In this document: positions 12,731 through 41,846 of the stretch, one piece after another | How the letters are laid out: the number at the start of each line of letters is the position of its first letter | Position numbering within the stretch: the first letter of the stretch is position 1 | Assembly: GCA_950295325.1 (NCBI GenBank) | Contig: OX485805.1 | Location: 43,176,758-43,240,757, forward strand | Reading direction: 5' to 3' | Length of the DNA: 64,000 nucleotides | Source: Polytrichum commune | Lineage: Eukaryota > Streptophyta > Polytrichopsida > Polytrichales > Polytrichaceae | The notes under the pieces: generated by a model | What the model saw: only the letters and a program-made list of their open reading frames with translations | What the model was told of the DNA's origin: nothing | Databases searched by the model: none | Program-made: the position numbers and the translations under genes

Positions 12731-13013
12731 TAGGTGAGAAACAAGACTCTCAAAAAAATATTAACCGTAACTTGAATACATTGATATTTACCACCATACT
12801 ATCTTTGCGAAGTTTACGGACGCGCGTCCGTAACTTATAGAGATATTTGAGTATATAATATACGCGTTATGCGTATTTGGAAGAAATGTATCTTTTCATT
12901 TGGATCCAAAAATGTAATTGAGACAATTTGGAAAACTTTACGAACGCGCATTCGTAAAGTATGATCTATATCTTTTGCCAAGAATTCTAACTTATCTATC
13001 TTATCATTTGCAG

Positions 13014-14301
13014 ATGGCATCTAAAAAGAGACATGCAATTGAGATGTTCGCAGAAGCTCTCATTCCTCCGCTACCAGAAGCCATCAAAGACATAAGTCCC
13101 AACGACCATTACAAGCCACAAGATGAAATTGTGGATAATTGGACAGTATTGGTAGAAAAGGACGAGAAAGAAATATTTGTGCTTAGATTTGCATATCAAA
13201 TGAAGACGGGCATAGATGAAGCTGAGAAGTGGATAAAGCTTAAATCGTGGACAGTAGAGTGTGCAGTGGCACAAGGGGATTATGTAGTAATAGACCTTGA
13301 GAAGAAAGAAGATCGGGTCACTTTCATTTTGCACGAATCCTACCACCCCTTCAACAAAAATGAGTGTGAGAATGCTAGTACAGATGCGGCTTGCTTCAAT
13401 CTCCAGACGGAGTTCCAAGACTATGCATGCAATGCACCTTGGACGGGTAAGCGGCTTGAACGACTCTTGAACAATGTAACAAGAGTAAATGGAGCCTTGC
13501 TAGAGGCCAGAAAGGGGAAAGATAAGAAAACAAATCGTTCCTGAACGACCCAAGCGTGTGCCTAAACCAGTGCCGGAATCCTCAAGGCCCTCGCAGAGTG
13601 GTGCATCAAGAGGGAGCAGACAGGCGAGTAAACGCTCTCACTCGCAGATGGACTCTGGACTAACAGAGGGTCCGGATGTCAGCTCTACACTGACTGTCGC
13701 TCCACTCCTCAAAAAGGGTCAACGCCCTGACGCCGAACTCTCAACAAAAATATTCCAAGAGTTCGATGAGAAGACGAAGGGATGCTGGCCCCTTGGCAGG
13801 TATTTTACTTTCGAAGTAGACGTCTACAAATGCCACAAGGGCACCGAAAGTATGAATACCAGAGCAAAAGAAGAAAGCGGTGTATGGTGGCAAATGAACA
13901 ACATCATGAACAACCCCAAGTTTGACAGGCAAACCATTTGTGTGACACCAAAGGATCCTATCGTTGAAGTCAACGAAAAAAATTGGCCGATTCTCAAGAA
14001 TGGAGAGTTCTACATTGTCCACGGCCAACATAGTGTAATGGCTGCAAAAGCTCTCCTTGAAGACGACGAGTGGAAAAGCCCATTAAAGGAGACAATCCGA
14101 TATTGGAAGGCATTCGTCGTGCATTCCAAGGACTCGAACCAACTCATAGCAATATCTGCCTTCATGAACCAGGGGAATAAAGTGAGGCAGTTCGAGGCTT
14201 CATGGGCAGCCAACATCGTGGCTGGGAGGACCTTGTGGGTGGAGCACGAATGTCCCCCAAAAGAAAGAGATAATGCTGTCGTGAAGAACCCAAAATGGCA
14301 G
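13014..14301 (+). CDS. Element A exon 1: N-terminal domain plus ParB/Srx-like domain
   Basis: The first 170 residues align loosely with copies B and C (a TVLVEKDEKEIFVLRF-like beta-rich stretch) and have no family I recognise. A basic linker rich in Ser, Arg and Lys follows. The second half matches ParB/sulfiredoxin-like folds, with the motif FYIVHGQHSVMAAKAL corresponding to DGQHx or GERRxxA loops of that superfamily. It ends in PPKERDNAVVKNPKWQ, nearly the same as PPKERENAKDKNPKWE in copy C. The frameshift lies in the linker between the two domains. Confidence 0.72.
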
Positions 14302-17300
14302 GTATGTTACTCAAATAGATTTACGGACGTGCGTCCGTAAATGTGGCCCTTCTCCTCCCACTGATTCAAATATTTGAATTTAATTTGTACTGAATTCAAT
14401 GTTCTGATTTCTTGCAATTCGCGCCTCTTGCAGACATTCAGCAATGCCATATTGACAAAGTTCTCGAGTATAGACATGAAGACAAGCGGCATGAAAACAG
14501 TGCATGAATTAAAAGGCGAACTCAAGCTCATCACTGCAACAGAAGAGACGTGGTCAATATGGTTGCGACTTTTCGATGCCCACAACAACGGCGACCTTGT
14601 CAATCCAGATACGGAGAACACCTACAAGAGCGACTCAAAAGTTAAGGTACCACCAATCCTGCGAGAGTTCTTTCGTCCCCTCCAAGGATTGATGGACTCG
14701 GAGCTGTACAGGGCAGCAGAACACATTCTTCTAGAAACTCCTAAAAGAACTCTGCCCTATCCCAAAATCTTTCTGAAGCGGCCGAAGCACATGAAGCCAT
14801 CCACGTACCACATTAAGGAATGGTGCGATTACAGAAAGAAGAAGACCATGGCTGTAAGGGAGATTAGCAAATTGCTACCCACCCACAACCTCATTAATAG
14901 TGATGGTGAGATCGTGTGGGAGAATTGGAGGAAGCTGAAGGGTGAATACCACATCAATGGCGTCTCAATGCGAGCTTTGATAAGAGGGGCATCATCCTTC
15001 CTTGCCCAACGATCCAGAAGGAACGAAAAGAAGGGATCCATCGACGAGAGGGAGGCAGGGTTGTATGTTCACTTTCTCGATAGGAAAAAGAACGCGAAAT
15101 TTGGAGGGTTTGCAAGATTCTGCACGGTCGCAAAGGGCATGAAGTTCGGCGCATGGGACACCCATGCTTCAAGAGCCTCTGTGAGAGATGACCCCAGGGG
15201 TTGCCTTTTCGCCATTTTTTATTTTCGTGCAATTCCCGGAGCATGGAAGCAAGACGTTGCGGGAGCACCCTTCTACGAGCCCTTCTTAAAAGCCTTCAAG
15301 AGCTATCGCTCGCCTGCCCTCTTCGAGCCTCATGTGTGGTTATGGATTGTAGAGCAAGAGAGGTCCACATCCATTGTCCATCTGTACACATCAACGATGG
15401 ACCTCGAATACGATATGTACCACAGCACCTACATCCCAGCGAAGACAGAAGGGATCACTTTCATTCAAGAGGCAAGGGGGGTGAAGCAAGTGGGAGCTGT
15501 GCAGCTTTATTTCTTAACACGCAAGTCTTCCCCAACTGGGCGATTGCCCATTAAACCACACGAGGTGTTCAGGAAAGTCTATTCGTTGCCGCCACCACAT
15601 CCCAAGGAGCTTGTTGAGGAGACAATGCATGCAATCTATCCGGCGTTCGAGCTCCGGATGGACTTTTATATAGGGGTCTTGAAGGCTTTAACTGTCATGA
15701 GTGAGACAGTTTACAACGTCTTCGGAGGCACGAAGTTTATGTATGCAGCACTGGTGAGTATTTGTTTGTCTTTCAACCCACCTATCTTTTGCATAGTTAT
15801 TTTACGGATGCGCGTCCGTAAAAACCCAGTATCAGGTGCATGTGAATTTTACGACCGTGCGTCCGTAAAATTGTCCAACTTTTGAGTGGTGGTTTTACGG
15901 ACGCGCGTCCGTATAACGTGTTGACATCTAGCCTCATTTATATGCAATCACCACTATTGTTCTTATCTAATTTTCTTGTTATGGTCCAGATGCTTGGCTT
16001 GCAGGTGAATTCTTTTGTGCAGGATTCCGACTACGATGACGCCCATACTCACAGGGTAATGGCCTCCAAAATGGATATCCAGGACATCATGGACGTCCTT
16101 ACACCCCATCCTGTTGTGCCTCTTTCTTCTAGAGAAGAGGCAATGCCCGGAATGGAGACAGACCCTGAAGAGGACCAAGATCCCAGTTCCCCAAGAGCGC
16201 AACCCTCCACACAGGAGCCTTTACACGGCCTTGTTCGCGACCCAATTAATCCAAGTGCTTTCCTGCTGGGAACAGACGACACGGATGCGCAGGAGGCACG
16301 CGTGAACTTCACTCTGATAAGGGTCCCTCATACCCCTGTTCTCTCACCTTTTGGGATTCCCACCTCTCGAGTTGGATTTCCCTCAACTGCGGGTCCATCT
16401 CGTGCTCCAAGAGTTATGGCCGAGAAGGATGTGGACCTTGCGGCAGAAGGCGGATGCACCGCTTCATCTGGAGGGGGATCTCAACATTCAGATCTACCCC
16501 CTATGGAGGGGAGGGATGTGCTGGAGTTGATATTGAGGCCTGATATCTCTCTATATCGTGAGAGTCGACGAAAGAGGAACAAGACGCCATACAACGAATA
16601 CCCTGAAGGCGCGGTCTTGGAGCTCTCCGATGAAGACGAGGATGAGATTAGGATTCACAATGCCATCTCTGCCTTGCCTACGGAACCTGGCAAGGTGAAG
16701 AAAGAGCCGATGTCAGTGTCCGAATTGGACGAGAAGATGGAGAGGCGAATGAAGGAAGAGCTTGACCAACGGCTTCGAGAAGCTAACGAGGAGCACGCCA
16801 AAAAGATGGCCGCCATCCAAGCTGAGATGGAGCAAGCTAGGTTGGAGTCTGCTCGAAGGCACGCCGATCTCATGGCCCAAAATCAACAGTTCTTGGCCCA
16901 AAGTCAACAATTTATGAGCCTGATGCAGAGCTTGCAGGCAAGACCCCCTGTAGTCTATACAGCTCCCGATGCCGTCATGTCTATGCCCCCCACTCTCATG
17001 CGGCCTCCGTCTAGTAGCCATGCGGTGTATATACCCGAGCATACTTATCCAGCCCCCGCGTTGATTGTCCCGCCCTCTCCCCTTGTTGTCGCCACTCCAG
17101 AGGAGCCCTCCTCTCATCCTACAGGAGTGGAGGAGATACCGGCACGTGACATGGCGGGTGCCGCCGAGACAGATGTCAATGAAGGCAATGCCCCCATCGG
17201 CGATGAAGATGTACATATGCGGGGCAGCCAAGACTCCACAGATGAGGATCAGCCTTACGTGGATACTCAAGGGTCGCAAGCGGCTGGAGACACCTTGTTG

Positions 17301-18513
17301 GTGGTCGAAGATCTGGACAATTTTGCGGACGCGCGTCCGGATCCTGTGCCCATGACGGGGCCAGGTGAGGGAGGCACTACTGGCACGGACCTCGCCCTTG
17401 AAGAGGTAATCAACCTTTGAGCATGCCTCCCATGTTACGGACGCGCGTCCAAAACTTCCTTGTCTGCCTCCTTCGTGGCGTGTGTATATTATCGAGTTCA
17501 ATCCTCGACTTCGCCCGGCGGGTGGATACAATTTTGTTAGCATAGATTCCATTAACTTCAACAAATATTTTTTGCGACAATGTATATTATTCACCAAATG
17601 TATATCACCAATTACATTAATACCAATTTTTCAACTAGATGGTTCGGATTATTTTTGGCCTTATAATTTGTGTTGAGTTTATCCATGCTTGTCAATTGGT
17701 TTTCTTGAGTAGTACCATTTACCTAGATAGAATGTTCCATCACAGGGTCCGTCGGAGATATGTCGCAACCCCGCGGAAAAACCAAGCGCGCCCATGATGA
17801 AACCGTTCATAATATTTGACCTCAATGGGGTGCTTTGTCAATCCAAACATATCTCGAATAGTGCGTCCAAAGGGCCCTTCCGTAGTCCACAAGACATGGA
17901 TTACGGCGGACATTTCGATACTCTCATAAATAAGAAGGTTGTACGTGCCCGCCCCGGTTTGAGGAGCTTCCTTCGTGAGGTCCTTGGCTTCGCCCATGTC
18001 ATCATCTGGAGCTCTATGCTCATGGACAACACGAAGGCCATCGTCGGTTTCCTTTTCCGAGAACTCGCAATGCCATGCTTGCTTCTCGGTCAAGAACACT
18101 GCGATGACCTCTATGACCGTAGTGGCAATATTGTACCCAAGGTCGGAGGAGGTCGTGGGCCTCAATTCTTAAAGGTCCTGAGGAAGAACCTCTGGGTGGG
18201 CGTCCCTATGTTGGAGGGGGTTCCCCACGGTTGTTGGCCCACCCCGGATAACACACTCCTCATTGACGACAGCCCGGCAAAGAGTATTCTCAATCCCCCG
18301 GGCAATTGCATATTCCCGGATCCTTGGGAAAGCGATAGAAATGACAACTTTCTAGAGAGTGAACTAGGACCCTACATTAGGAGGCTTGCCTATCACCCCG
18401 GAAGTGTCCCGGATTTTGTGCTCTCCAACCCAATTGGCAATAGGCCTCTAGGCCCACAAGATGAGGAATTTAGGAGATTGTACGGCTACGCTAGACTCAA
18501 TAAATTAATATGA
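13014..18513 (+). CDS. Element A large multidomain gene (ParB-like / SIM / HAD fusion)
   Basis: Four coding exons (13,014-14,301; 14,434-15,753; 15,990-17,405; 17,746-18,513) have GT-AG introns and phase-0 junctions. They give one protein of about 1,595 residues. The start ATG directly follows a splice acceptor (TTTGCAG|ATG), as in copy C. Order of parts: N-terminal domain, ParB/Srx-like domain, central conserved domain, acidic disordered segment with coiled coil, HAD domain. The only defect is a one-base frameshift between 13,504 and 13,541. Removing one A from the run near 13,527 would restore continuity. Copies B and C have the same plan. The protein is likely nuclear and may act on the element's own palindromes; this is inference from context. 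I know no named gene with this architecture. Confidence 0.78.
14319..14342. repeat. A-type palindrome in intron 1
   Basis: One 24-bp palindrome with centre GTGC sits 17 bases after the donor of the exon 1-2 intron. Copies B and C each have exactly one palindrome of their own kind in the same intron. Confidence 0.85.
14434..15753 (+). CDS. Element A exon 2: conserved central domain
   Basis: Uninterrupted, 440 codons. The homologous exon is 426 codons in B and 441 in C. Landmarks shared with the other copies are a KFSSID start, WxxWxxxFxxxxxGDxxxPDT, REFFRPLQG, HIL, the basic patch RKKKTM, and a C-terminal VFGGTKxxYA immediately before the donor. Several conserved Trp and Gly residues suggest a folded domain, but I cannot assign it to a known family. 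Confidence 0.75.
15800..15914. repeat. Three A-type palindromes in intron 2
   Basis: Copies lie at 15,800-15,823, 15,847-15,870 (degenerate left arm) and 15,893-15,914 in the exon 2-3 intron. The same intron holds one B-type site in copy B and five C-type sites in copy C. Confidence 0.85.
15990..17405 (+). CDS. Element A exon 3: acidic, SIM-like and coiled-coil segment
   Basis: It starts MLGLQVNSFVQDSDYDD, matching MLGLKMYSYIEDNDF in copy C. A disordered Pro/Ser-rich region follows. A hydrophobic-acidic motif AVLELSDEDEDE at about residues 207-220 looks like a SUMO-interaction motif. Next come VKKEPM, which fits the SUMO acceptor pattern, and a Glu/Arg/Gln coiled coil. Near the end the coding sequence contains an element A palindrome (17,322-17,341) read as FADARPDP. 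The exon ends at GAG|GTAATC, phase 0. Confidence 0.75.
17322..17453. repeat. A-type palindromes in exon 3 and intron 3
   Basis: One copy at 17,322-17,341 is within coding sequence. A second at 17,434-17,453 is just inside the following intron. Both keep GCGGACGC or ACGGACGC arms. Their placement repeats in copies B and C with different sequences. Confidence 0.8.
17746..18513 (+). CDS. Element A exon 4: HAD/NIF-type phosphatase-like domain
   Basis: After acceptor CACAG the frame is open from the first base (GPSEIC...), so the domain is joined to exon 3 rather than starting at the ATG 48 bases in. HAD motif I is FIIFDLNGVL, motif II is VIIWSSM, and motif IV is LLIDDSP. This order and the spacing match NIF/SCP/FCP1-like CTD phosphatases, as in plant HAD proteins with DLNG. 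The second Asp of DxDG is Asn, so general acid/base catalysis is probably lost or weakened. The end, LNKLI-stop, is conserved in copy C. Confidence 0.8.
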   Translation, partial: GPSEICRNPAEKPSAPMMKPFIIFDLNGVLCQSKHISNSASKGPFRSPQDMDYGGHFDTLINKKVVRARPGLRSFLREVLGFAHVIIWSSMLMDNTKAIVGFLFRELAMPCLLLGQEHCDDLYDRSGNIVPKVGGGRGPQFLKVLRKNLWVGVPMLEGVPHGCWPTPDNTLLIDDSPAKSILNPPGNCIFPDPWESDRNDNFLESELGPYIRRLAYHPGSVPDFVLSNPIGNRPLGPQDEEFRRLYGYARLNKLI

Positions 18514-23150: not shown

Positions 23151-23159
23151 TATGACGCT

Positions 23160-24115: not shown

Positions 24116-24421
24116 CCCACGGGTGTTCACCCGTGGACTGTGCACTCGCCAAGTGCAGAGGCCCACGGGTGAACACCCGTGGGCGTCTCCACTCATCTGG
24201 TTGGAAGTGCCCACGGGTGTTCACCCATGGGCCTGACCACTCACCAAGTGGAGAAACCCACGGGTGAACACCCGTGGGCGTCTCCACTCATGTGGTTGGA
24301 AGTGCCCACGGGTGTTCACCCGTGGGCCCTGGCACTCACCTGGTGGGGAGGCTCACGGGTGAACACCCGTGGGCACTTCCAACCAGATGAGTGGGGACGC
24401 CCACGGGTGAACACCCGTGGG
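24116..24421. repeat. B-type palindrome array, seven copies, about 47-bp spacing
   Basis: 22-bp palindromes start at 24,116, 24,162, 24,210, 24,257, 24,305, 24,352 and 24,400. The two arms are CCCACGGGTG and CACCCGTGGG with a central TT or AA, so orientation is defined and mostly alternates. The spacers are themselves repeated and carry CACTCAC and CANNTG-type motifs. The array lies in the 5' intron of copy B's gene. Confidence 0.9.
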
Positions 24422-24767
24422 CCTCTCCACTCATGAAAGTTTGAGAAGGGGACTTCATCAAATTCTAATCCACCTCCATAATGAATTTGATACGAGCGTA
24501 AAACATTGATTTTGCGTAATCTTATTGGTGTGGAGTCAAGGTTGTTATGTTATTTCATATTAATTTATTTCAAAATGGCATATTCTTGCCATTCACACCT
24601 TTCCCAAAGTTTTAAAACTTTTAGATTTATTTCATTTCTCTATATGAAATTATAAAGTTCAATAAGTCCACTCATGCAATAGTCAAAAGCATTAATCCAC
24701 GTTCCAACTTGCATCTTTGATTTTTTCATTTTCCAACCACCCATGTGGTGGGAAGAGCCCACGGGTG

Positions 24768-24920
24768 GTCACCCGTGGGCCTTGGCACTCACCAGGTGGA
24801 GAGGCCCACGGGTGAACACCCATGGGCCCTGGCACTCACCTGGTGGGGAGACTCACGGGTGAACACCCGTGGGCTTTACACTCACCTGGTTGGAAGTGCT
24901 CACGGGTGTTCACCCGTGGG
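24768..24920. repeat. Second B-type palindrome array, four copies
   Basis: Palindromes lie at 24,768-24,789, 24,805-24,826, 24,852-24,873 and 24,899-24,920, with the same spacers as the first array. Together, 11 sites lie upstream of the start codon at 25,101. Confidence 0.9.
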
Positions 24921-25100: not shown

Positions 25101-26535
25101 ATGGCAAGAACTAAGCAAACAACTCGTAAAGGTATAACCACAATACCTATGTGCACATGAATGTTATATGATTTATACAATTCGTGATCATATTAAAATG
25201 CGCGGGGTACTAACACGTGCATGTTCTTCTACAGTATCTGGAGGTGCAGGCAGAGCGGTGAGTTACGATATTGAAGTTTTGAGCCCCGATTTGCAATGGT
25301 TCATACAGTACAGTGGTTTCGGGGAGACAACTGTACTCTCGCTGTACACGAAGAGTGGCCCTAATTCCACATGGAGAAAGTACCTGAAGGCAAAGCATGT
25401 ATTGGACATTCAAGCGGATGGGAACTGTGTATTGATAATGTGCAAGTCGTTAGAACGGAAGAAGGAGTTCAAGGTTGCAGGATTCGTGGAGGCTTTTTCA
25501 TATGCGGAGGTGAATGAAGAGCTCAACACCGAGGGAGAGAACATCCGCTTATTGAACGGTGAATTTCTCACCTATTGTATAGAATATTCTGAGACAAATG
25601 AGCACACCAAGACCGTTGAGGAGAGATCAGCAATGATCGAGCAAGACTACAAGTCTGCTCTACGACGAGTGAAGGTTATAGTTGAGGAGGCAAAGGCGGC
25701 AAGGTTGGAAGCAGCTTTGAAGAAGAAGCAAATCCGCGATGGGAAGAAGAAGGATCCTGCTGATGTTCGTGCAGCCTCGTCTAGGAAGAAGACGAGACCC
25801 GATGAAGGACAGGAATTAATTGTTGAAGACACTCCCAGCGAGGACGTTGTAACCAAGAGAGGCAAAAAGAAAGCAGCCGACGATAGTCCCTTTCTTGAAC
25901 TCGAGAAGATTCCGAAGCGATCAATGCATGGGCCTCCAGACAAATCGGTTGGAGACAGGTTGATGGATATGGACTTGTTCAAGAACAAGTACAATAGGGT
26001 GTGGATCTTCGGGGAAGGCGTGAATGAATTTGTGAATATTGACAATATAGAGCGTGGAGATGCATGGTATAATTGCCGACCCATATCCGAGGCGCATTTG
26101 AAGGAGATGAAGACATGGTTATTCAACTATGCATTCATTCCGAAGATTCACCCCAACTTCCTGACAATCGTTCCTTCGGATAGGCGAAGAAAACCGACAA
26201 ATTTTGAGGAGGTGAAGGACAAATCGTTCCACGTGATAAATGGACAACACACGTTAGCCGCCTGTCTTGAGTATGTAAATGACCCCAGCAACACAGACGA
26301 GGTGAAGAGGTTTTTCTCGAAATGGCCCTGTAATATGGTCTGGGCACCTGAAGGTGATGACGACCCTCTGTTCCACCTTTCTGGCGTTCTGAACTTGGAT
26401 AGTGAATACATGAAGCATTTTCCATCATTTACGGAGTGCATTTAGTACGCTAGAAAGACTTGGATTAGGCGAGGAAGACCTGACCGAACGGTACGCGAGA
26501 AGTCCAACAACACGGAAGTTTTTAAGAGATGGAAG
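25101..26535 (+). CDS. Copy B exon 1a/1b: H3-tail-like start, N-terminal and ParB/Srx-like domains
   Basis: The 31-base exon 25,101-25,131 joins 25,235 (donor GTATAACC, acceptor TTCTACAG) and begins M-ARTKQTTRKVSGGAGRA. Histone H3 begins ARTKQTARKSTGG, so 10 of 13 residues match, including R2, K4, R8 and K9. The domain that follows corresponds to the N-terminal domain of A and C. A Lys-rich linker comes next. The ParB-like part has YNCRPISEAHLKEMKTWL and HVINGQHTLAACLEY, the best ParB/Srx match of the three. The TAG at 26,443 stops the frame 30 codons before the exon end. Confidence 0.7.
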
Positions 26536-26580
26536 GTATATTTCAAACGTGTAACTTTTGAATTTCTCATTTGTGTGAGT

Positions 26581-26602
26581 CCCACGGGTGTTCACTCGTG
26601 GG
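26581..26602. repeat. B-type palindrome in intron 1
   Basis: A single copy, one mismatch in the right arm (ACTCGTGGG), in the intron equivalent to the one holding a single site in A and in C. Confidence 0.85.
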
Positions 26603-26684
26603 CGACTATCATGTTGTTGGTGATTGATAGAAATACATGAAGGTTTTTTCATAGAGATTGAAACATGGCCGGTGTTTGATACAG

Positions 26685-27963
26685 GCATTCATTACGTGCA
26701 TCATGTGGACGTTCCGCGTGGAGAAGGAGACCAACCTGATCATGAAGCACGTCTTGCCTGTATTGAGCGATGACATTTGGAGGAAGTGGGAGCGGATATT
26801 CAAGGATTACAAGAGTGGTGACTATGTAGACCCGAAGACCGGAGCTCTCATGAAAGAGACTAAGGGTTTTAAATCGAAGGTGGTCAGAGTTTAGGGTTTT
26901 AAATCGAAGGTGGTCAAGAACGATCTGAAGCAATTTCGGGGATAGACGGAGATTGAGCTCGACATGGCAACGGATCAAATCCTCACCACCGAAGATGGAC
27001 AGGAGCACCCTCGGCATACCTTGAAGACTGTGCGCGATTGGGTGGTGAATAGGAAGAAGAAGAATAAAACCTATATCGCAATGGCACATTGTCTAGACCC
27101 GACCCCATTGTATATAGTTAACGTTGATCAGAAGGAGACCATTGATCGGGATTGTTGGAGATTGTGGAAGCTTGCGAATAATTTTGGTAAACTCCAGCGA
27201 GAACGACTTGTGGATTTGCTTGGATCGGAGTACCTTCTTGGCGCTATGAATCCCGCAAGGAAAAGAATACCTATTCCTGACCGGTTTAAAGAAGGAGTGA
27301 GAAACATACTAGGTACGCATAACACCGAGGTTATGCCAGAGCATGTCGTGTTGTCTATTGACAACAACTACAAGTTCAATGGTGGGACAGTGCTTGCACG
27401 CGTACGTGGACACAAGGTTTGTCCCCGGAGTCCAGGTGGGAATAGACACTGGAGGGCGTGTGAATGATGCTTTGGATTCCACTCTACAAGGTCTTCGTCG
27501 TGATTTCCCAGGCATTTTGAACTCCCCCCAGTTGTGGACTGTGATTTCGGAATATCCCGATCGGCATTTCATTCACAATGTACTGAAGACGTATCTACCG
27601 AGCACCGTCCGATTTTGTGATGCCTTCTACCATGGCACTAAAGAGGAGAAAATTGCATCTCGTGATTGCTTCTTCGAGTCGAATGCTCTTCGTGTTACAA
27701 CCTGCATTTTTCCCTATAGAGGCGAATCAAGTTCGGAGGTGGCTGTGCGGCTCTGTGGAGGTCGGAAGATGTTGGACGTCCATGATCCGGGGCGATATAA
27801 ACGGTATTCAGTGAAAAAGGCGTATTCCAATAAGGAGGCCAAGAGTTTATTCAAGGGGGAGTTGAGGATGCAGACCTACATTGATATCATCAAGCCTTCA
27901 TGTCTTGAGGGGTCATTTTTTTTGAATATTTGTGGAGGCAATAAGGCGCATATAGTGGCACAT
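26685..27963 (+). pseudogene. Copy B exon 2: central domain, broken
   Basis: It matches the central domain of A and C: DDIWRKWERIFKDYKSGDYVDPKT aligns with the equivalent WxxW/GD/PDT region. It is interrupted by two TAG codons and a one-base insertion. The basic patch NRKKKNKT and the terminal CGGNKAHIVAH (VFGGTKFMYAAL in A) are preserved. Confidence 0.65.
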
Positions 27964-28069
27964 GCAAGTATTGAGCATTTTTTCCCCTTATTGTTTATTG
28001 AATTTCGCGGTATTATCGTTAGTTTGGATGATGTACTAGATAACCTAAACCACAAACCGAGTGGAGAGG

Positions 28070-28091
28070 CCCACGGGTCAACACCCGTGGG
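28070..28091. repeat. B-type palindrome in intron 2
   Basis: CCCACGGGTC and its partner arm lie in the exon 2-3 intron, the position that holds three sites in A and five in C. Confidence 0.85.
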
Positions 28092-28301
28092 CCTAGACAT
28101 CCACCTGGTTGGAATCCACGTGCACTATATCCACATGGTTGATAGCCACCTGGTTGATAGCCACCTGGTTTATAGGTTTCCAAAAAATTGGTTGGTTGAC
28201 AGTCAACAAGTTGAGAGCGTTGGTTTGATGATTTTCATTTCGCTTTTGATGTAGACAAATTTGATTGAGAAGTTTGTTTTGTCATTCCTTGGTTTTTGCA
28301 G

Positions 28302-30035
28302 GCCTTGGGTATGAAGGTTTTGAATATTGTGCCGGTGGAGATGCTAGAGGTGGCAAAGACGAAAATGATTTCCGCAATTGACTGGAGCCTACAAAGGTGG
28401 AATGAAGAAGGAAAAGTCGTTGCCCAGGACATGGAAGAGGAAGAAGGACGTATCGTGGGGAGAAGCGAGCATGCCAGGGACACAGTTGAAGAGGAGGAAG
28501 AGGAGGAGGAGGAAGAGGAAGAGGTGGAGGACGAAGATAGCCCAATTGTTGTCCTAGGGGAGTCTGAAGAGGAAGAGGAAGAGGAAGAGGAGGAGGAGGA
28601 GGATGATGTCATGGACGAGGTACTTGCGGAGGCCATGGCGGAGGCGGAGGAAGAGGCCTTCAATTACAAGGTATCGGCCATGGCCATGTCCCCGGAGGAG
28701 GTTCCCCACGGGTGTTCACCCGTGGGGGAGGGGGAGGGGGAGGACAAGGACGAGCGGCAAGAGGATGCTTCCAACCTAGAGGAAGTTGTTCGTCCACAGT
28801 CCGAGCACAGTGTCTGTCTCCCTATGGGATCTATCTCGTCCGGGATCCCATCTACACCCGGCCGCGGGTTTGTACAAGTGGATACATCTAGACGAAGTGA
28901 AGAACAACCAGATGTTCAACCTATGGAAGAATCTAACGAGGATGAGCGTCCGCGGTCAGCAGAAGCAGATCAAGTGGGGGCTAATCCTGTTGGAAGGTCT
29001 ACATCGAAACCGTCTGCAAGGAAGAAAATGAAAGCTCCCCGAAGGGGAAGGTCATCTCTACGTCCCCCTAGAGTTGGAGATCATTCACGGTCTTCGGAGG
29101 CAATGGAGCATTCTGGGCTTCATACCGAGGTTGAATTTGGCCAAGTAGCGGATGTGCAGGATGTTCCGCGTGATGCAATCATGTCTGAAGCTGTGCATGT
29201 TGAAGGGGCAAGCACAGATTTGAATGTCAGCTCACCTGTGGAGGACGTTGCCGCTGCCGTTCTCGAGGTCCTAGGCCATGGGCGATCACACCGACATTCC
29301 CCTGATGTTGTGGATGCAGAAGAGCCTACTGTAGCGGCACCATCCAATGAAGCAGAGGAGGTTATTCGAACCGAAGTCATATGCTTGGATAGTGATGACG
29401 ATGTGCCCGAAAGATGCGTAGAACTAGATGTGAGGGTGAAGGTGAGAGATCGAGTTCCACATCGGGTTCGGGGGACGTTTGCTGACTACATGACGGATGA
29501 TTCCGAGGATGAGGATTATGGGAAACCCGGGTACAACAGAGTAAAACTCAACTTTGTTGATGACCCTCACCCGGTGTTTGCTGGGAGACCTAACATGGGC
29601 AAGGAATCGGATGGGAAGGACAAGGTGCATGTTGCCCCATTTGTGGACAAATATTTGGTAGACGTACCCGAGAATGTGCGATTGAATCTGGCGCATTTGT
29701 ACAAGTCGTACGACTATCACAAGATGTTCACTTATCTCTCCACTCCAGCGTTTTGTGAAGCAGTGAAGGTGAAACATATTCTTCATGCTGCTGCATTAAA
29801 GAAAATGAGAAAGAGATGGACAGCGTTCGAAGCTCCCAAACATCGTGAAGAACGAGGTCAATTCGCGGGGTCCTCAGCCGCTCAAGCCGGCAGTGTTGTG
29901 GACTCTACGTTGGAGATCATTGACATTAGTGGAGTGCCAGAGTCTCCAAGGAGGGAAGTCAATGTTGCAGTTGCGGAGTCCTCAAGCCCTCATGTCGAAC
30001 GTGTTGCTGAGGGTCAACCGGCATCGTCCGAAATG
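28302..30035 (+). CDS. Copy B exon 3: Glu-rich, SIM-like segment
   Basis: Open for 578 codons. It starts ALGMKVLNIV, matching MLGLKMYSYI in C. Long Glu runs lie at about residues 65-105. The palindrome at 28,705-28,726 is translated as PHGCSPVGE. A strong SUMO-interaction-like motif EVICLDSDDD lies at about 29,373-29,405. It ends at ATG|GTAATAC, the same junction sequence as copies A and C. Confidence 0.7.
28705..28726. repeat. B-type palindrome inside coding exon 3
   Basis: A perfect copy of the B palindrome lies in frame within exon 3. The corresponding exon also contains family-specific palindromes in A and C. Confidence 0.85.
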
Positions 30036-30245
30036 GTAATACATACTACCTTTCCAATGCAATATTGTGTTTATCTTGGAAGCAAAGTCGTCAAGATTTC
30101 TAAAAGTGTCTTCGCAATAGGTGTTGGTTGCGACAGAACGGGATGTCATTCCACCGAGTTCTCATGACGACCCTGCACATGGTGGGGATCCCCCCCCAAG
30201 CCAAACTCAAGGTATCATATATAGTGTTATTTGAATGCAATTGGT

Positions 30246-30370
30246 CCCACGGGTGAACACCCGTGGGGCCACCTGGTTATACTTTTCAATTTCCATACAA
30301 ATTGTTATCTCTCGAGTAATATTTATATAAGGGATTTTTGATATTGTGCCCACGGGTGTTCACCCGTGGG
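30246..30370. repeat. Two B-type palindromes before the HAD exon
   Basis: Copies at 30,246-30,267 (central AA) and 30,349-30,370 (central TT) lie in an intron between exon 3 and the HAD exon, where A and C each have one copy. Confidence 0.85.
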
Positions 30371-30630
30371 AGATTATGGGTTTGAGCGTGTGGATCTCAT
30401 AAGTCATGTGTGCATGTGGTCACAGGTCATACAGCCACTGCCGGAATACCACCTTCGGTACGATATTTTACTCGATCTCGCAGAACTAATCCATAAATGT
30501 GGAGGCATTATTTTATCTTGCATACTGATGTGTACCCAACGTGTTGTTTCATTCGATAAAAATCATGTAGAATATACATTTTCCTTAGATAGAAATCCTT
30601 TACAATGACTTTCAATTTTGTCATCGCCAG

Positions 30631-31413
30631 ATCCTCACCTCTCCAACCACTGTTGTCCATCGGAGAGAGAAGATATGGTTAGTGCTGGATGTGAACGGGA
30701 TCTTGGTGAGGTCAACAAAGTGCGACAATGTCAACACCAGGAAGACTCTTGAATCACAACATAGCCCTCAGATAACTGGGGAGTTGGCTCCACTCTTTCT
30801 CCCATATAGTGCCCTCATACCTAGGAAAGGACTGGGACGCTTTCTGCGTTTTGTTCTTTCAAACTTCCATGTCGTCATCTGGTCGTCGAAGCTTATGAAG
30901 AATCTTCAGCCAATTGTCCGGCACTTCTTCAATGGTTGTAGACATCCAGAGTATGTGTTTGGGCAAGAATTGTGTCACACTCTGAAGGATGAGAGAGGAC
31001 AAGTTCTTCCTAGTCCTATGAATGCTGATTCAAGCTTCTTCATGAAAGACCTGTGCGCATTTTTTGAGTGGAGCCGGACGCATCCAGTGCCGCATACGAA
31101 GCAACCCAGTCATAGGACTACATTACTTGTTGATGACTCCCCTTACAAATGCATCCCAAACCCTCCTGGGAGCTACATTAACCCTCCCCCATTTATGTCA
31201 ACCCAAAGCTTGGATACTTTGCATAGTTACCTGCAAAGGCTCTTGAGTTCTCAACAGTATGTGCCAGATTTTGTGGGGAGCAACCCTTATCCATCAGGAC
31301 AGGGACCCTTCAATTTAGAGCTGCCAAGTTCTCAAATTTATAAGCAATCATTAGCTAGACATAAAATACTGACTTCTGCCCGTATGGTTCCAGAGGCTCA
31401 GATGTTAATGTAG
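30631..31413 (+). CDS. Copy B HAD/NIF-type domain
   Basis: Open for 260 residues after acceptor CGCCAG. Motif I is WLVLDVNGIL, motif II VVIWSSK, motif IV LLVDDSPYK. As in A and C the second motif I Asp is Asn. The C-terminus diverges (no NKLI end). It is joined to exon 3 through two short exons (30,121-30,211 and 30,426-30,457) that keep the frame open. Confidence 0.72.
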   Translation: MLTSPTTVVHRREKIWLVLDVNGILVRSTKCDNVNTRKTLESQHSPQITGELAPLFLPYSALIPRKGLGRFLRFVLSNFHVVIWSSKLMKNLQPIVRHFFNGCRHPEYVFGQELCHTLKDERGQVLPSPMNADSSFFMKDLCAFFEWSRTHPVPHTKQPSHRTTLLVDDSPYKCIPNPPGSYINPPPFMSTQSLDTLHSYLQRLLSSQQYVPDFVGSNPYPSGQGPFNLELPSSQIYKQSLARHKILTSARMVPEAQMLM

Positions 31414-31655
31414 ATTCCCTATTGGGGCCGCCTATAGTGCACATTTGCACTATCGGTACATTGTATTTGAAATAAGTGGATCTGAAACTTTGTTGCCTTT
31501 CAACTTCATTTGAAACTTGTTTTGGTTTTGTGGATTTTCTTCATGCAAACATGTCATGGTCATGAATGTATCTCACTGGGATTCTACTACTTTGCAACAC
31601 TGCGGTGTTAGAGAATACCCGACTATTTCCAACCACAGTGAATGTCTGGCATTGT

Positions 31656-33058
31656 CCCACGGGTGTTCACCCGTGGCAATGTGGTAGTTGATGCAATGAA
31701 TGTATCAGGCCACTTGGACAATGTTAGTTGTGATTTTGGGAATTATGGTTGTCATAGCGAATTTTAATATGTAGGACTTAGTCGGCTATAATTCATATGT
31801 TTTGAACATGTTCATCTTTACTACAGGGCAACGGACGGGCTCCTCTTGCACATAATGTCCTTCTTCCATGGACTCTTATGTTATTGTATCCTAACAGCAT
31901 TCCCCATTCCAAACGTGACCTAAGAACTATATTGCCAGTCCACCATGTCGACAACGTCCTCCGGATGCTAACGCCGACTTCGCCGAAGTGACATCTCCAT
32001 GCCCTGAGGTAATTCATTTTCCATATGAATCCCAATTTTTTTAGTTGTGTTTCATCGACGGGATTCTAATATCAATTTGTCGTTTGTTGTGTTAGACACA
32101 TATGCTCCAAACACGCGATGTTGCGCTCGCGGTTGCGGTGGCTGTTCCGGTCGTGGTTGAGGAGGCTGTTCCGGTCGATGTTGCGGGTCCGGTCACACGC
32201 GCTCGGGTGAAGAGACACCTTTCTCTCCAAACCACTCACCCCAGTGAGCCCACGGGCTCGGGAAATAGTTCTGGATGTTGGAGGTGTAGTTCACCCAATA
32301 CCACCTCATCCATGTCTGATTACGTGGCTGCAAGGGTGAAACAACTTCGAGAAGCTATAGTTTTGATGGAGGAGAAAAAACGGCTTGAAGAAGTCAAGCG
32401 CAAGCAATGTACTATAGCTCAAAGACAACCTCATGACAAGATGTTGAAAATGATTAAGGATTCATACTCCTCTTGTAGATAGCCGGACCTTTATGGTGAT
32501 AGATTTTCCACGGGTGTTCACCCGTGGATACAACAATTCATATACTTTGTTCACATTTTTTGTGCCCACTGTGGCATCTATGATTCATTCAAATGATTTT
32601 TTGACCCTCATTTGTGTAGTCGGATATGACATGTAGACCTTCCTTCATGTGTTATGGATCTTGCATCGTGTGTTGCATGGCGTTGATTGTTCACGGGCGT
32701 TCACTCGTGGTTAGATGTATTTGTATTCTCTGAGTAGTATTAAGTGCCCATGATAGCTTTTATGATTAGACCCATTATATTTGCATACATTTGTTGACAT
32801 GCGCATGGTTGTTCCTTAGTGGTGTCGACTTATGTTGTATTATGGATATAGGCTCATCTGTTGCGGGGTGTTGGTTGGTCACGAGTGAACACCCGTGGTG
32901 ACAACTGGGCTAAGTTTTTATGTGGGCTAGAATATGCATTATTTTAGCTTATATATATACACCAATGTGCATGAAATAGTGTGTTAGTCTATGTTGATGA
33001 CCTTCCTCTTGTTCTAAACCTTGTCAATGATGGCAATTCACGGGTATTTACTCGTGAA
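31656..33058. repeat. Scattered B-type palindromes, 3' region of copy B
   Basis: Good copies lie at 31,656-31,677 and 32,507-32,528. Decaying copies lie at about 32,690-32,711, 32,878-32,899 and 33,037-33,058. Similarity falls with distance from the gene. Confidence 0.75.
31827..32482 (+). CDS. Copy B small downstream gene
   Basis: Two exons (31,827-32,008 and 32,096-32,482) have clean splice signals (CTACAG acceptor, GAG|GTAATT donor, GTGTTAG acceptor). The second encodes a Val/Ala-rich stretch, a Ser/Thr-rich middle and a basic coiled coil (VKQLREAIVLMEEKKRLEEV). Position and general character match the small genes of A and C, but residue identity is low. The first exon frame is uncertain. 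Confidence 0.4.
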
Positions 33059-35750: not shown

Positions 35751-37229
35751 GTTTGGGTCGAACGACCCAAACCAAAGAGTTAGTTTGGGTCGAGCGACCC
35801 AAACCCAACAGCCGACAGCTGGTTTGGGTCGAGCGACCCAAACCCAACAGCTGGTTTGTGTCGCGCACCTCTCCATGAGGAGTGCCCGAAACACCATGGG
35901 CACAAGGGGGACCCCGGAGTGACACCCGGGACTTGTGGCGCTGTTGGTGAGAGGGCCCAAGTGATCCTAGTGTGGGTGAGGGCCCCGGGCGTTGGGAACG
36001 CCTCCCACCCACGAAGACTAGTAGGCATGAGGGTAAGGCCATGAGCTATGTGTAGCTCATGGCGTGGTGATTCTAGAAAGCTCAAGAACACCTCAATCGG
36101 AGGTGTGAGGTAGGAGTTATGGCCATTTGAGTGGGGCGCTGTCCCGGGACAGCGCCCTGGTACAGCAGTGCCTGGGAGTGATTCCCGGGACTGCCAAGGT
36201 TCAAACAGGCATAGCGTCCTCAATACTTGTCCGAATGGGGCAAGTGAGGAGTCCATCGGCATCTACGTGAAGCGTAGATGAAGATGGAGTGGTTGGTTGT
36301 TATGATCAGACATCATACAAGGAAGTTATGATGGTCTGAAGCTGCTAGGGGGTTCTAGGCCCAGCAGCTAAAGGAAAATGTCCACTTGGCCCCAACTCTT
36401 GGTGGAGAGACAAGAGGTTGGTTGACGGTGGGGTAGGGGCCCCGCGTGAAGTCCTAGAGGCTTATATGGGTGAGGTGGTGTGGCCTCACCCACCTGAGGC
36501 CGAACGGCATGGCCTCCATGGGCATTGGCCCATTGTGAGGCCATAGTTGCCTAGTATGGTTCGGGTTGTTGTAGTGTTGCTCCGGCAACGCGATGATCAA
36601 CATAGGATTGGACTTCCATGGATGGAAGTCCACATCTAGGAATGGGTTACCGATTAAGGGGTGAGTCCCGAAAGTAAAGTAGGAGGGTTGGTTCCCTCCT
36701 ATGAACTATAAGGTCCGGGGTAGGAGGAGCTAACCATTAGCATGGCGGAATGCGAATGGTTAGCGCTCGTAACCTTTGCTAGAATTGAAAATTGGCAAGA
36801 TTGTCAAGGGAGGCTAGCAAGGGTTGCGACAAATTGGGTCGAGCGACCCAAACCCAACAGCTGGTTTGGGTCGAGCGACCCAAACCATGGAAAAACATAT
36901 TCATATCGATCCAATAAAATTAAATCTCATGAAACAAATTTATTATACAGATCTATTTTGGGATGTACACTTATATCTAAAAAATATGAAAGTTACCAAA
37001 AAACAAAGCACTAATAATTATTTGACCTACTATCTCAAAATTTGTATTGCACGATCGAGCTAATTTCATACAGCAGATAATTGTTGCCAATTATCAAACC
37101 CACTACTGGCTTGTGTTTGGGTCGATCTACCCAAACCTGCCAATTCGTGACCTCAACATATATGACATCGGTAATTCCCGTCAACATGCTAATATACATT
37201 TGTAATAGTTTGGGTCGAACGACCGAAAC
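35751..37229. repeat. C-type palindromes in the 5' intron
   Basis: Copies lie at 35,751-35,772, 35,783-35,804, 35,822-35,843, 36,832-36,852, 36,864-36,885, 37,115-37,136 and 37,208-37,229. The arms are GTTTGGGTCG and CGACCCAAAC with a central AG in most copies. The interval 35,859-36,831 is the LTR insertion, which splits the array. Confidence 0.88.
35859..36831. mobile_element. Solo-LTR-like insertion inside the palindrome array
   Basis: The 973-bp segment starts TGTCGC and ends GCGACA, so it has TG...CA ends. It separates 'ctggtttg' from 'aattgggtcgagcg'; removing it rebuilds a normal C-type unit. The flanks allow a 5-bp duplication with two mismatches (GTTTG / AATTG) or a 3-bp TTG duplication. 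It has no coding capacity and is more GC-rich than its surroundings. A solo LTR is the simplest reading; a small TIR element is the alternative. Confidence 0.55.
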
Positions 37230-37254
37230 TAATAGCGTTGTGGTTTTCTTGCAG

Positions 37255-38583
37255 ATGGCCCCCAAAAAAAGACCTGGAGAGAGATGGTTTATGATCGCAC
37301 CAGATGTGGTTTGGCAGGAACACAAAACACCTGAAGATGAATCTTATGTGCCTAAGGATGGGCTGGTGATTGCGTGGTCTCTCCAAGTGGTGAAGGCATC
37401 TCAATTCAAGATCCTCTTTGTGGTGAAAATTGGGACAGTGGATCAAAACACATGGGCAACTTTGACGGGGTGGGAGGTGGCGTCAGTACAGGCTCTAGGT
37501 GACTACGTGGACGTCATACTCGAGAATTCTGCAATGCAGAATGCGCACATGTTCATGCATCAATTCTCCGAGGCATTTGACCCCCTGTACGTAAAAGAAA
37601 CTTGCATTGAGCGAGAGGTTATTAAACCAGAGTCTATCTTCATAGATGGAAGCATTTCAAACACAAAGGTGGCAACCAGGTTTACAAAGCTTAAGCAAGC
37701 AATCAACGCATTAAACAAGGCTCAACAGAGCAAGTCAAAATCACAACAGCTGGTGAGGAGGAAGGCCACAACAGAAGAAGGCGCGGGCTCGTCGAGACCT
37801 CAAACAGTGAGGAAGCTGCGGGCGGTTCCAGCTGACTCAAGAAGAACCATGCCTACGGCAACACCGGCGGATAGTGAGACACCCACGCCATCAAACAACC
37901 GTCAGACAACTCCTTCAAAGAGGCAAAGAAAATCGGCATCAGTTATGACGGACGAGCCAGTTTCCCCAGAACTGCGTATGCCAAAGCCCGGATAAGAAGT
38001 GGATGCGTCTGAGATCCAAAGAATCGTGAACAATTTCACGACCAAGTGTTCTCACTGTTTCTTCATGGGTAGGGATTTCAAATTTGACATCAATATTGCT
38101 CAGTGTCACCTAGCCCCACCAGAAAAGTGTGTTCGGGCAAAGGAAGATGCCTACGTCGATTGGATAATCGCCCAGATAGTGAGCGAGCAATTCAAAGACA
38201 ATAGGCAAACTATTGTAGTCATGCCCCAGGGACACGAAAGAATGCCCACTCCGGATATGTGGCCGTCAATTCAAAAAGGCGATTTTTGGCTAATTGACGG
38301 ACAACACAGCGTGGAAGCGTCGAAGAAAATCCAACTCATGGCCGAGTGGGATGATCCCAATAACCAAAAAGATAAATTGAAGGTGTGGAAGGCCTTGGTG
38401 GTGTGGTCAGATGACGAAACCAGACTCAGTGACATCTCCCGCTACTTCAATATGGGGAACAAGAAACGGGCATACCAAGCTTCGTGGATTCGCAACATCA
38501 TGGCCTCACGCGAGGTGTGGGAGTTCTACGGCAGGCCTCCCAAGGAGAGGGAGAATGCGAAGGACAAGAATCCAAAGTGGGAG
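37255..38583 (+). CDS. Copy C exon 1: N-terminal domain and ParB/Srx-like domain
   Basis: It starts MAPKKRPGERW. The N-terminal domain runs to about residue 165, then a Lys/Ser/Thr-rich linker. After the in-frame TAA (37,993) the frame continues with the ParB-like domain, with FWLIDGQHSVEASKKI and a terminal RPPKERENAKDKNPKWE. The linker position of the break is close to the frameshift in element A. Confidence 0.7.
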
Positions 38584-38592
38584 GTGAGTGTG

Positions 38593-38614
38593 GTTTGGGT
38601 CGATCGACCCAAAC
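38593..38614. repeat. C-type palindrome in intron 1
   Basis: A perfect palindrome with centre GATC, nine bases after the donor of the exon 1-2 intron. It is the counterpart of the single sites in A and B. Confidence 0.88.
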
Positions 38615-38715
38615 CCTTGTAAGAGTTAATATTCACGGTTTTTCATCTAAGCAAATGTCCAACTAACATATACATATCTAACATGCATTTCTATGTTTAT
38701 GTGCAATATTTCAAG

Positions 38716-40038
38716 TACCAAATGATCAATAAGTTCTCCTCCATTGACAATGCGAGTCACAAGCAAAAGAAATATAACGAGTTGCGAGGAGAAATTTATT
38801 TGATAACAGCATCCGACCATGTCTGGTTGAAGTGGAAGAACGTGTTCGAGAAGCACGAGACGGGGGACCTGATGGATCCCGACACAGGCCTGCTTTTCAA
38901 CTCGACCGCACGTTTCAAGCAGCTCAAGCCTTTGATGAGAAAATTCTTTCGAACACTCCAAGGGCTTTCGGAGACAGACATGGGGAAGGCGGCCACGCAC
39001 ATCCTGCACGTCGAGCCCACGGCAAAGAGATGTTGGGTGCACCCAAAGATAGTCTTCTCCAAGCCTAAATCATTCATTCCTTCATGCTACACCATGAAGG
39101 AATGGACGGAGAATAAGAAGAAGAAGAACACCATCGTCCAAGAGTTGCACAAGATAGTCCCCGAAATGAACCTTTTTGTGGATGGCGAGGTCCACGACGC
39201 AAACTGGAAAGCATTCAAGGCGGAGTACAAGTTCACAAGTGCATCTATGGCGGCTCTCATCAGGGAAGCGGGGGAAGACTTCCTGCGGTCTAAGCTGGTG
39301 AAAGGTGGGAAGAATCGGGCACTTCCCGATCACACAGCGCGTGTCTTCTCGAATTTCATAAAGGAGAAGAGAATAGTCAGTTTTGAGGGGGACGCGCATT
39401 TCAACCTTGTCACCCTGGAGCCTCTAAAAATCCAGGGGTGGCCTGGCGTTGAGGCTCGCAAGACGATAAGGACGAATGCTGGGGATCGATTCCCCTTTGG
39501 GATGATAGACTTCAGGAACATTCCTGGAAGTTCGTTTGAGGGTACTATGAGCACCCCCTTCTATGAGCCCTTCTTATCAAAGTTCGTCGACTATGCAAGT
39601 CCCAAATTTAGGGAGGTCGACATTTGGTTGTGAATAGTCGAGGATAGGAAGGCGGAGCAGGTATATGAGATTGCGAGGAAATTGCAACCTGATTATGCTG
39701 TCTCTAAATCTCATTACATTGTTGCACCGGCGGAGGGGTCTTACTCGACGTTGAAGGACAAAAAAACAAAGCTTGTCGACGTATTGTGTTTGTACTTTGT
39801 ATACAAAGCGAACTTGCTGAAGGTCGACAACCACCCCATAAACCGGATGGAAAAACTCTTCCAAGTACCAGAGGGGTTGGGTGCCAGCAAGAGCCTCTAC
39901 GACGAGGCCAAGTACGCGAACTATACTGCCGGCGAGCTGCGGATGGAGTTCTACTTACGGATAATGAGGGCCTTGACAAGAAGAGGGGATTCTATTTTCA
40001 ACGTCTTCGGGGGTTCCAAACCTATCTATGCTGGCATG
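38716..40038 (+). pseudogene. Copy C exon 2: central domain with one stop
   Basis: 441 codons. It contains KFSSID, DHVWLKWKNVFEKHETGDLMDPDT, RKFFRTLQG, the basic NKKKKNT patch and a final FGGSKPIYAGM, all aligned with A. The TGA at 39,631 replaces the Trp of A's WLWIVE. The acceptor used (TTTCAAG|TAC) is inferred from frame. Confidence 0.7.
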
Positions 40039-40067
40039 GTAAGTAACTTCAAAATAGTTGGTTTATA

Positions 40068-40233
40068 ATTTGGGTCGAGCGACCCAAACTTGCCACAGTG
40101 AAGGTTTGGGTCGAGCGACCCAAACTTGCCACAGTGATGGTTTGGGTCGAGCGACCCAAACTTGACACAGTGAAGGTTTGGGTCGAGCGACCCAAACTTG
40201 ACACAGTGAAGGTTTGGGTCGAGCGACCCAAAC
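40068..40233. repeat. Five C-type palindromes at exact 36-bp spacing, intron 2
   Basis: Copies start at 40,068, 40,104, 40,140, 40,176 and 40,212. All have the same central AG orientation and 'ttg[ac]cacagtgaagg' spacers. They lie in the exon 2-3 intron. Confidence 0.92.
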
Positions 40234-40327
40234 CTTTTGTATTGGTTTTCTCTTATTGTTTCTTTTTCTTGTTCTTGGTGTAATTTAATGAGCATATCTC
40301 TTATCCAAGTTCTTTTTGAATGTCCAG

Positions 40328-41803
40328 ATGTTGGGTTTGAAAATGTACTCCTATATAGAGGACAATGATTTTCAATTTTACAAAACCCAAAAAGCCCTAG
40401 CCAAGAAGATGGACATCCTCGATTGGATCCCGGGGAGCTACATGGAGGAGATTGTAGAGGGGGGTGAAAACCCGATGGATATGGCAAGGCGTGTCAACCC
40501 TGCAGAATTTGCCACGAGTGCTCCAGTTGGAGCACCCGAACCACTCGTAGGATTGCATCCGGGTACCTCATCTCGGGGGCCAGGTGACGAGGTGGAGGAG
40601 GAGGAGGAACAAGAGGACCATAAGGCGGAAGGGGAGGTAGAAGAAGGAGCAACGGGTTACACGCAAGAATCAGAAGCCCCCCAATGGAAGAAAGCTATGC
40701 GGGTGGCAACCCCGCAAAGCAAGTTGGTGCCCGTCCTCACGGTGGACGATGCTAGAGACATGTACTCCAGGGACGCGACAGCAACGTTCAGGGAGAGGAG
40801 GAAGTTGAAGGGGAAGAAGCTCTACAGCGACTACGCAAGGGAGGAGACCATCGCCATAAGCAGCGAGGACGAGGACGATATGGAGCTCGCCAAACGGCTC
40901 AGATCGGATCCCCCCTCCCCGACATCGTTCGCAGGCATGGTTAGGGTGAAACCAGAAGTCCTGACTGTGGAGGAGGCGAACGAGAAGATGCGGAGGGACG
41001 AGGAGCAGCGAGTCCGCATGCAGAAGGTTGCCGTAGAAGAACCCTCAATGCGGAACGAGCTAGCAGAGTTGAGGGCTCTCCTATTGGAGCAGGAGCGACA
41101 AAGGGCGATGGCCCAACCTCCATCCAGCGCCGAGCTGATATCGCAGGTCATTCAAGGAATGTGGGCGCAAGGATTGGTGGTGGCTCCCTCGAGCGCCTTT
41201 CCGCACTTGCCCGCCGGCTTCCCTGCCCAGAGCATTCCTCAACAGTCTGTGCCGCAAGCGTCATTCAGCTTCCAACACATGATGCGGCCACACAATGTCC
41301 CCTACGCCCCGGTCCAGCAAGTGGACGATCCCAACATCTGGCGTGTCTCTGGAGCCTCCTCTCCTTTGGGGCCTCCACCACTTCGGCCCCCCATAGTGAT
41401 GGCGCCCCCTCACCAGCATGACGACCCCCGAATGTTTGGGTCGGATGACCCAAACACACCCCCCTGTGTAGTGCCACAAGGGAACTACCCCGATGCAGGA
41501 CAATTTGGGTCGGGTGACCCAAACCTTGGTGCAGGACAGTCGTCCCTTGACCAACATGGGTGTGAAAAAGACACAACCATGTTAGATGTTGAAGGCCTGC
41601 AAGGGCCTGGTGATACCTCTACTCCTAACCAAGTCGATGAACCCATGCATGATGCACATGCGGAGATTGGTTTAGGACAAGGGCCTGATCCTGGACCTTT
41701 GCAGGAGAAGGTTGCTGATGTCGTTGAAGAAGGCGTTGGAGAGAGAGGAGGGGCAGCGCAGACGATGGAGCCCTCCACGGCATCGAGACATGACCAGGGC
41801 GAG
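40328..41803 (+). CDS. Copy C exon 3: acidic, SIM-like segment
   Basis: Open for 492 codons. It starts MLGLKMYSYIEDNDF. Glu-rich stretches follow, then TIAISSEDEDD (SUMO-interaction-like, about 40,849-40,884), then VKPEVL, which fits the SUMO acceptor pattern and aligns with VKKEPM in A. A coiled coil and a Pro/Gln-rich tail come next. The palindromes at 41,436-41,457 and 41,502-41,523 are translated FGSDDPN and FGSGDPN. Confidence 0.72.
41436..41523. repeat. Two C-type palindromes inside coding exon 3
   Basis: Both keep the GTTTGGGTCG / GACCCAAAC or TTTGGGTCG / GACCCAAAC arms; the centre varies (GA and GG). The reading frame runs through them. Confidence 0.8.
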
Positions 41804-41824
41804 GTAATACACTGAAACCTCTCA

Positions 41825-41846
41825 GTTTGGGTCGATCAACCCAAAC
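41825..41846. repeat. C-type palindrome in intron 3
   Basis: One copy with one arm mismatch (GATCAACCC) lies just after the donor at 41,804. A has one copy and B two in the matching intron. Confidence 0.82.

Follow-up and report, generated by a model that had tools for sequence, protein, structure and literature searches.

An H3-tail-like first exon in a multi-copy transposable-type element of Polytrichum commune

Introduction

Histone mimicry is known from some host regulators. In GFI1/Snail factors the SNAG domain, a loose mimic of histone H3, places an H3-tip-like sequence at the extreme N-terminus of a DNA-bound protein, where it recruits LSD1. Histone mimicry is known from viruses as well, and excerpts of PMC10208167 describe how short, modifiable H3 segments are copied in foreign proteins such as influenza NS1 and SARS-CoV-2 ORF8. 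A different kind of system is found in the VANDAL elements of Arabidopsis, in which, according to excerpts of PMC5735166 and PMC10398659, the VANC protein diverges together with matching arrays of short motifs, which lie in introns and upstream; in VANDAL21 a single base separates the C-type motif of VANC from the T-type motif (PMC5735166). Here we describe three related elements, A, B and C, in 64,000 nucleotides of Polytrichum commune DNA (the window; contig OX485805.1, positions 43,176,758 to 43,240,757), and we report that the gene of copy B opens with a short exon encoding the tip of the H3 tail.

The B element combines traits of these systems. It resembles the SNAG proteins in joining a DNA-binding-type protein to an H3-like N-terminus, but its mimic is letter-exact to K9. 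With the viral mimics, as the excerpts present them, it shares the copying of a modifiable H3 segment by a selfish protein; it differs in that the match stands at the very N-terminus, in a free-alanine context and with nine of nine residues in 37 of 55 copies, and in that it belongs to a transposable-type element and is kept across subfamilies. As in VANDAL/VANC, to the extent that the same excerpts describe it, a diverging protein goes together with matching motif arrays upstream and in introns. The element-specific motif is repeated in noncoding parts and changes with the protein, and a single base separates the motifs of subfamilies (CCCACGGGTG and CCCACGGGCG here, C-type and T-type there). 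The putative target in the B element is, unlike the motifs in those excerpts, a 22-bp palindrome. Among the 20 frames and the relatives scanned, there was no Pfam match to the VANC domains DUF1985 and DUF287 and no MULE-type transposase, A having DUF7869 frames instead, and the excerpted VANC literature (PMC5735166, PMC10398659) does not mention an H3 mimic. The elements also resemble bacterial and phage ParB-like proteins, beta-class DNA methyltransferases and the bdelloid N4CMT, through a methyltransferase fold match in the A family and a weak ParB-like match; they differ in that DFRxIPG is read at the place of the catalytic DPPY-type motif (by eye), and in being eukaryotic elements with introns.

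Among the matches listed for the open-access literature (titles and abstract openings), no precedent for a transposon-encoded H3 tail was found. If the reading proposed below is correct, such a mimic redirects readers, writers or erasers of H3K4/K9, and joins sequence-specific anti-silencing to histone mimicry in a form that can be tested with short peptides. An exact, selected H3 tip would be a natural reagent, since any partner it binds in this plant is likely to be a host factor whose recruitment or blocking matters to the element.

An H3-like first exon in copy B

An earlier note on this DNA, made from the sequence alone, had proposed that joining positions 25,131 and 25,235 creates an H3-like protein start. 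The features concerned are the following.

25101..25131, + strand: exon 1, H3-tail mimic, from ATG to AAAG; encodes Met and ARTKQTTRK and ends on base 1 of a V codon
25132..25234, + strand: intron 1, 103 nt; GTATAA donor, CTAAC at 25210, TTCTTCTACAG acceptor
25235..26535, + strand: exon 2, starting with (V)SGG; PH-like domain (tentative prediction), linker (basic/helical), NGQHT stretch

Re-reading of the window DNA bore out this join. When exon 1 is joined to position 25235, the window sequence reads MARTKQTTRKVSGG / MARTKQTTRKVSGGAGRAVSYDIEV, and 10 of the 13 residues are identical to H3 1-13. The predicted spliced junction consists of the AAAG of exon 1 and the TATCTGGAGG-type start of exon 2, while the splice signals of intron 1 (GTATAA, CTAAC and TTCTTCTACAG) are well formed. 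For the element family the H3-like N-terminal peptide is ARTKQTARKVSGG; the mimic spans H3 1-9 plus G12-G13, not the whole tail, and has V at the S10 position. This match stands out from its surroundings, since the ATG of exon 1 gives 8 of 9 matches to ARTKQTARK and the next best of the 2,944 window ATGs (both strands) gives 5 of 9. In a Markov simulation of 150 windows, the best ATG match to the H3 tip was 6, reached once and never exceeded.

The exon is present in most genomic copies examined

Searching the assembly of the window (407.8 Mb, 64 contigs) with exon 2 gave at least 106 matches; the ones with 23-30% identity probably represent relatives of the A/C type. We examined 57 loci (L numbers below), namely 30 that were returned and 27 that were chosen because the match begins near the exon 2 start. 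Whether other family members begin with ARTK had been a question of the earlier note: exon 1 was present at 8/10 or better in 55 of the 57 loci, and the H3-like start is thus no peculiarity of one copy. The form of the mimic needs correction, as the ARTKQTTRK of the window is not the commonest version. MARTKQTARK, which after its Met equals H3 1-9 exactly, was found in 37 of the 55 exon-bearing copies, MARTKQTTRK in 13 and MAKTKQTTRK in 2, while MARTKQIARK, MARTKQTSRK and MARTKQTAHK occurred once each.

All 55 exon-bearing copies have the MA start and a GT directly after exon 1. The acceptor AG was present in 52 of the 53 acceptors checked, a tally that leaves out L021, L052, L047 and L025 (in the last two the junction is misregistered), and it was lost in L051. 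Residues A1, T3, K4, Q5 and K9 were invariant in 53 of 53 junctions read, and the S10 position was V in 52 of these, the exception being the misregistered L025. At L021 the match starts at residue 5 and no exon was found upstream, whereas L052 has a decayed exon remnant with a deletion (by eye). At L057 the exon lies ~1.4 kb upstream, so that an insertion appears to have lengthened the intron.

A protein search with exon 2 produced 40 relatives (sources ena, jgi and lgn; P numbers). One of these, P0005 from jgi, is open through the intron and has an exact MARTKQTARK start in frame with exon 2; once the intron is removed, it aligns with the window copy without gaps over 413 residues at 79% identity. 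P0005 was the only open-intron copy found in the protein collection (proteins of 272-865 aa). Ten of the 40 relatives have a frame that extends upstream of the exon 2 motif. In these, T, A or S precedes the junction and V or A comes next, which, as read from protein and not from DNA, would fit a conserved acceptor ending in CAG in phase 1.

The H3-like tip is kept by selection while the family spreads

When five subfamily representatives were compared, the protein identity of exon 1 was 100%, compared to 69-86% for exon 2 and 63-83% for intron 1. The exact exon 1 was also found where exon 2 is only 67-74% identical to that of the window (L039, L041-L046 and L053). When the changes in exon 1 were counted on the exon 2 tree, which includes some truncated copies on long branches (L049, L054, L055 and L057), there were 12 silent changes and 18 replacements. 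Codon 8 (A7) accounted for 14 of the 18 replacements, with Ala/Thr switching in both directions and Ser once, and was set aside for this frequent switching after the data had been seen. Outside codon 8 there were 11 silent changes, 7 of them on internal branches; the 4 replacements there were confined to tips (R2K in two cases, T6I and R8H). Internal branches thus carried 7 silent changes and no replacement outside A7. Since ~23 of the 30 sites of exon 1 are replacement sites, the probability of 7 out of 7 silent changes without selection is (7/30)^7, or ~4e-5. This pattern of substitutions indicates that the H3-like tip is kept by selection, with position A7 as the exception. Decay of methylated copies by C-to-T or G-to-A change would account for the T, K, I and H replacements, but not for the apparent returns to Ala.

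Among young copies, identity over 3.9 kb reaches 99.97% (L002 on C1 against L003 on C4), and such near-identical copies on different chromosomes point to recent multiplication with the exon intact. The B family is best described as a transposable-type element that is dispersed and has multiplied recently. The earlier note had placed the mimic in a mobile-element protein; to this can be added that the element is multi-copy and the mimic selected.

Each element has its own palindrome

24116..24920, no strand: upstream B-type palindromes, 11 copies of the 22-bp CCCACGGGTGTTCACCCGTGGG, ~47 bp apart, in two blocks (7 + 4)
26581..32528, no strand: 7 further B-type palindromes, at 26581, 28070, 28705, 30246, 30349, 31656 and 32507
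12918..18513, + strand: copy A gene, MASKKRHA at the first ATG, no H3-like start; palindrome TTTACGGACGCGCGTCCGTAAA; NIF phosphatase 17731-18513
37081..43097, + strand: copy C gene, MAPKKRPG at ATG 37255, no H3-like start; palindrome GTTTGGGTCGAGCGACCCAAAC; NIF-like frame 42399-43097

Elements A, B and C each have their own 22-bp palindrome, with 17, 18 and 16 sites respectively (≤3 mismatches), and the stretches concerned do not overlap (A 6617-15915, B 24116-32528 and C 35751-41846). With as many as 3 mismatches allowed, the remainder of the window contained no B-type palindromes. The commonest half-site in the genomic B loci was CCCACGGGTG in 37 of L001-L038, with TCCACGGGTG once (L014), and CCCACGGGCG in all nine of L039-L047. 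Palindrome sites are sparse in older B loci, for example L048 and L051-L053. Palindromes were also recognised in translated form, the B type in 5 of the 40 B-family proteins, and the A type in 9 and the C type in 1 of the 62 proteins retrieved with copy A, and there was no crossing between B and the others; these are short peptide patterns, of which single matches could be chance. In relatives P0001-P0004 and P0031 the translated palindrome follows just after exon 2.

The MASKKR and MAPKKR starts of the one A copy and one C copy compared suggest that only the B lineage has the mimic. The window presents three related, deeply diverged elements side by side, with private palindromes in flanks and introns, and the half-sites TTTACGGACG, CCCACGGGTG and GTTTGGGTCG look like variants of one pattern.

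Origin of the exon

We read eight host H3 starts, five of them from the 14 full-length H3 matches and three from piecewise matches; L066, an H3-like match (64%), was set aside because it has no ARTKQ-type start. In the host starts A1 is GCG or GCT, R2 is CGT or CGC in 8 of 8 and K9 is AAG in 7 of 8. The element exon has GCA for A1 in 54 of 55 copies, AGA for R2 in 53 and AAA for K9 in all 55. Host H3 genes are without the intron of the element, and the first piece of the piecewise H3 matches covers residues 1-27 in two loci and 1-57 in a third, where it has an internal stop. Recent capture from a host H3 gene is not supported because the codons differ and the first H3 pieces are longer; the same two facts leave old capture, which is possible, or convergence. 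A viral or prokaryotic origin was rejected, given that no relatives were found in viral_contigs or genome_contigs, and no exon or palindrome pattern in viral_contigs.

Proposed mechanism and alternatives

It is established that Met is removed before Ala, and the free-alanine ARTKQTARK of H3 is recognised by PHD, ADD, LSD1-type and SET1-type proteins. If the B gene is expressed and spliced in vivo as its signals predict, Met removal would expose ARTKQTARK with a free alanine, followed by V-(S/P)-GG, and the V at the S10 position would make the mimic non-phosphorylatable there. The putative DNA-binding body of the protein (PH-like domain, ParB/DGQHR-like stretch and pseudo-methyltransferase fold) would bind the palindromes of its own element and thereby present free H3 tails at that element. 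These tails might engage host PHD/ADD readers, LSD1-like or JmjC demethylases, or K4/K9 methyltransferases, as recruits or decoys, such that activators or erasers are brought in, or K9 methylation and its readers are held off, and the element is kept active. We consider it fairly probable that a sequence-targeted element protein shows an H3 tail to host H3-tail-binding proteins and so keeps its element active. A more specific picture, in which an exact H3 tip on a palindrome-docking protein surrounds the element with free, unlinked H3 tails for self-directed chromatin control, is one to which we give slightly less than an even chance. The recruiting or decoying of silencing machinery that the earlier note had suggested is plausible in that it fits the DNA-binding-type architecture and the element-specific palindromes. 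Weighing against the observation of the exon is the state of the window copy, which is itself decayed, having A7T and an in-frame stop at 26443-26445; at the site of this stop, an unaligned reading with truncated loci included gave CAG in 32 of the 57 loci and TAG in 4.

The exon could instead be an old captured piece of H3 that serves as start exon and weak nuclear-import signal only, without mimicry. The basic character of the exon and the fact that H3 N-termini also act in nuclear import speak for this. However, exon 2 has other basic stretches (KRGKKK and RKKTRP), an import signal need not be H3-exact, and the five invariant residues go beyond mere charge; since the R2 codons of host and element and the length of the first H3 pieces also argue against it, we regard this explanation as unlikely. 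We give about as little credit to the idea that the tail is a soluble competitor of H3-tail enzymes, acting in trans and genome-wide and not at the palindromes. This would build on the same sequence facts as the palindrome-targeted mimic, and on the many copies, but local action is favoured by the apparent DNA-bound nature of the protein and by palindromes that are specific to each element. Improbable, too, is that the tail acts within the element's own protein, by auto-inhibition or self-assembly on the PH-like or methyltransferase-like domain. H3 acts in a comparable manner on the ADD domain of DNMT3A, the tail adjoins a predicted folded domain and related elements encode a DNA-methyltransferase fold, but a host partner would better account for the exact identity to host H3. 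Chance resemblance or a spurious exon, which the window copy, as one decayed locus, might suggest when taken alone, is ruled out for practical purposes by the ATG and simulation statistics, the presence of the exon in 55 of 57 copies and the way silent changes are distributed.

The remainder of the B element

26536..26684, + strand: intron 2, 149 nt; B-type palindrome at 26581
26685..28254, + strand: exon 3 region, frame broken here; low-identity likeness to copies A and C
28269..30167, + strand: acidic frame, 632 aa; no family above cut-off
30589..31413, + strand: NIF-type phosphatase frame, PF03031 E=3.9e-11

Exons 2 and 3 of B gave nothing significant in Pfam, NCBIfam, PHROGs or PDB sequences. 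The NGQHT stretch of exon 2 is weakly ParB/DGQHR-like: the profiles DUF6551 (E=0.03) and DUF1015 (E=0.043) both fell short of cut-offs, and a ParB PHROG, which has no curated cut-off, gave E=0.096. For copies A and C a beta-class DNA methyltransferase fold was predicted, the A family giving a fold match with the bdelloid enzyme among the rows, and judged from these relatives exon 3 of B is likely to have this fold too. The place of the catalytic (D/N/S)PP(Y/F) motif reads DFRxIPG by eye. Comparison of 18600-24100 with 31420-36000 revealed no terminal inverted repeats for B.

Neighbouring features of the window

An imperfect 28-nt inverted repeat pair (2530-2557/19785-19812) flanks copy A, and CAAT, a possible 4-bp target duplication, adjoins both its ends (by eye). 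The pair may mark the borders of element A, which at ~17 kb would enclose palindromes, the DUF7869 frames (- strand) and the NIF frame. No terminal inverted repeats were found for C (31420-35700 against 41800-50000). The frames near A lie at 3187-6351 on the - strand, one of them with DUF7869 (PF25273, E=1.1e-40), and are possibly a transposase-type partner of element A; tblastn detected no second DUF7869 copy in the window. NIF-type frames adjoin each element (17731-18513, 30589-31413 and 42399-43097), and in those of A and B the first motif reads D-x-N, not D-x-D (by eye), which makes activity doubtful. In P0093, a relative found with copy A, the tail of the frame carries repeated FGPVGPN/FGPTGPN; this could be another palindrome type in translated form, belonging to a further subfamily.

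The window also has a C-rich repeat region at 20863-21970, with CCCCCGTCCGCCCC and CCCCGTTCCCCCCC words and long open frames on both strands. At 54209-61073 on the - strand, a kinase-type NLR locus is made up of NB-ARC, a protein kinase and an LRR block that is highly regular, its words recurring at intervals of about 144 nt.
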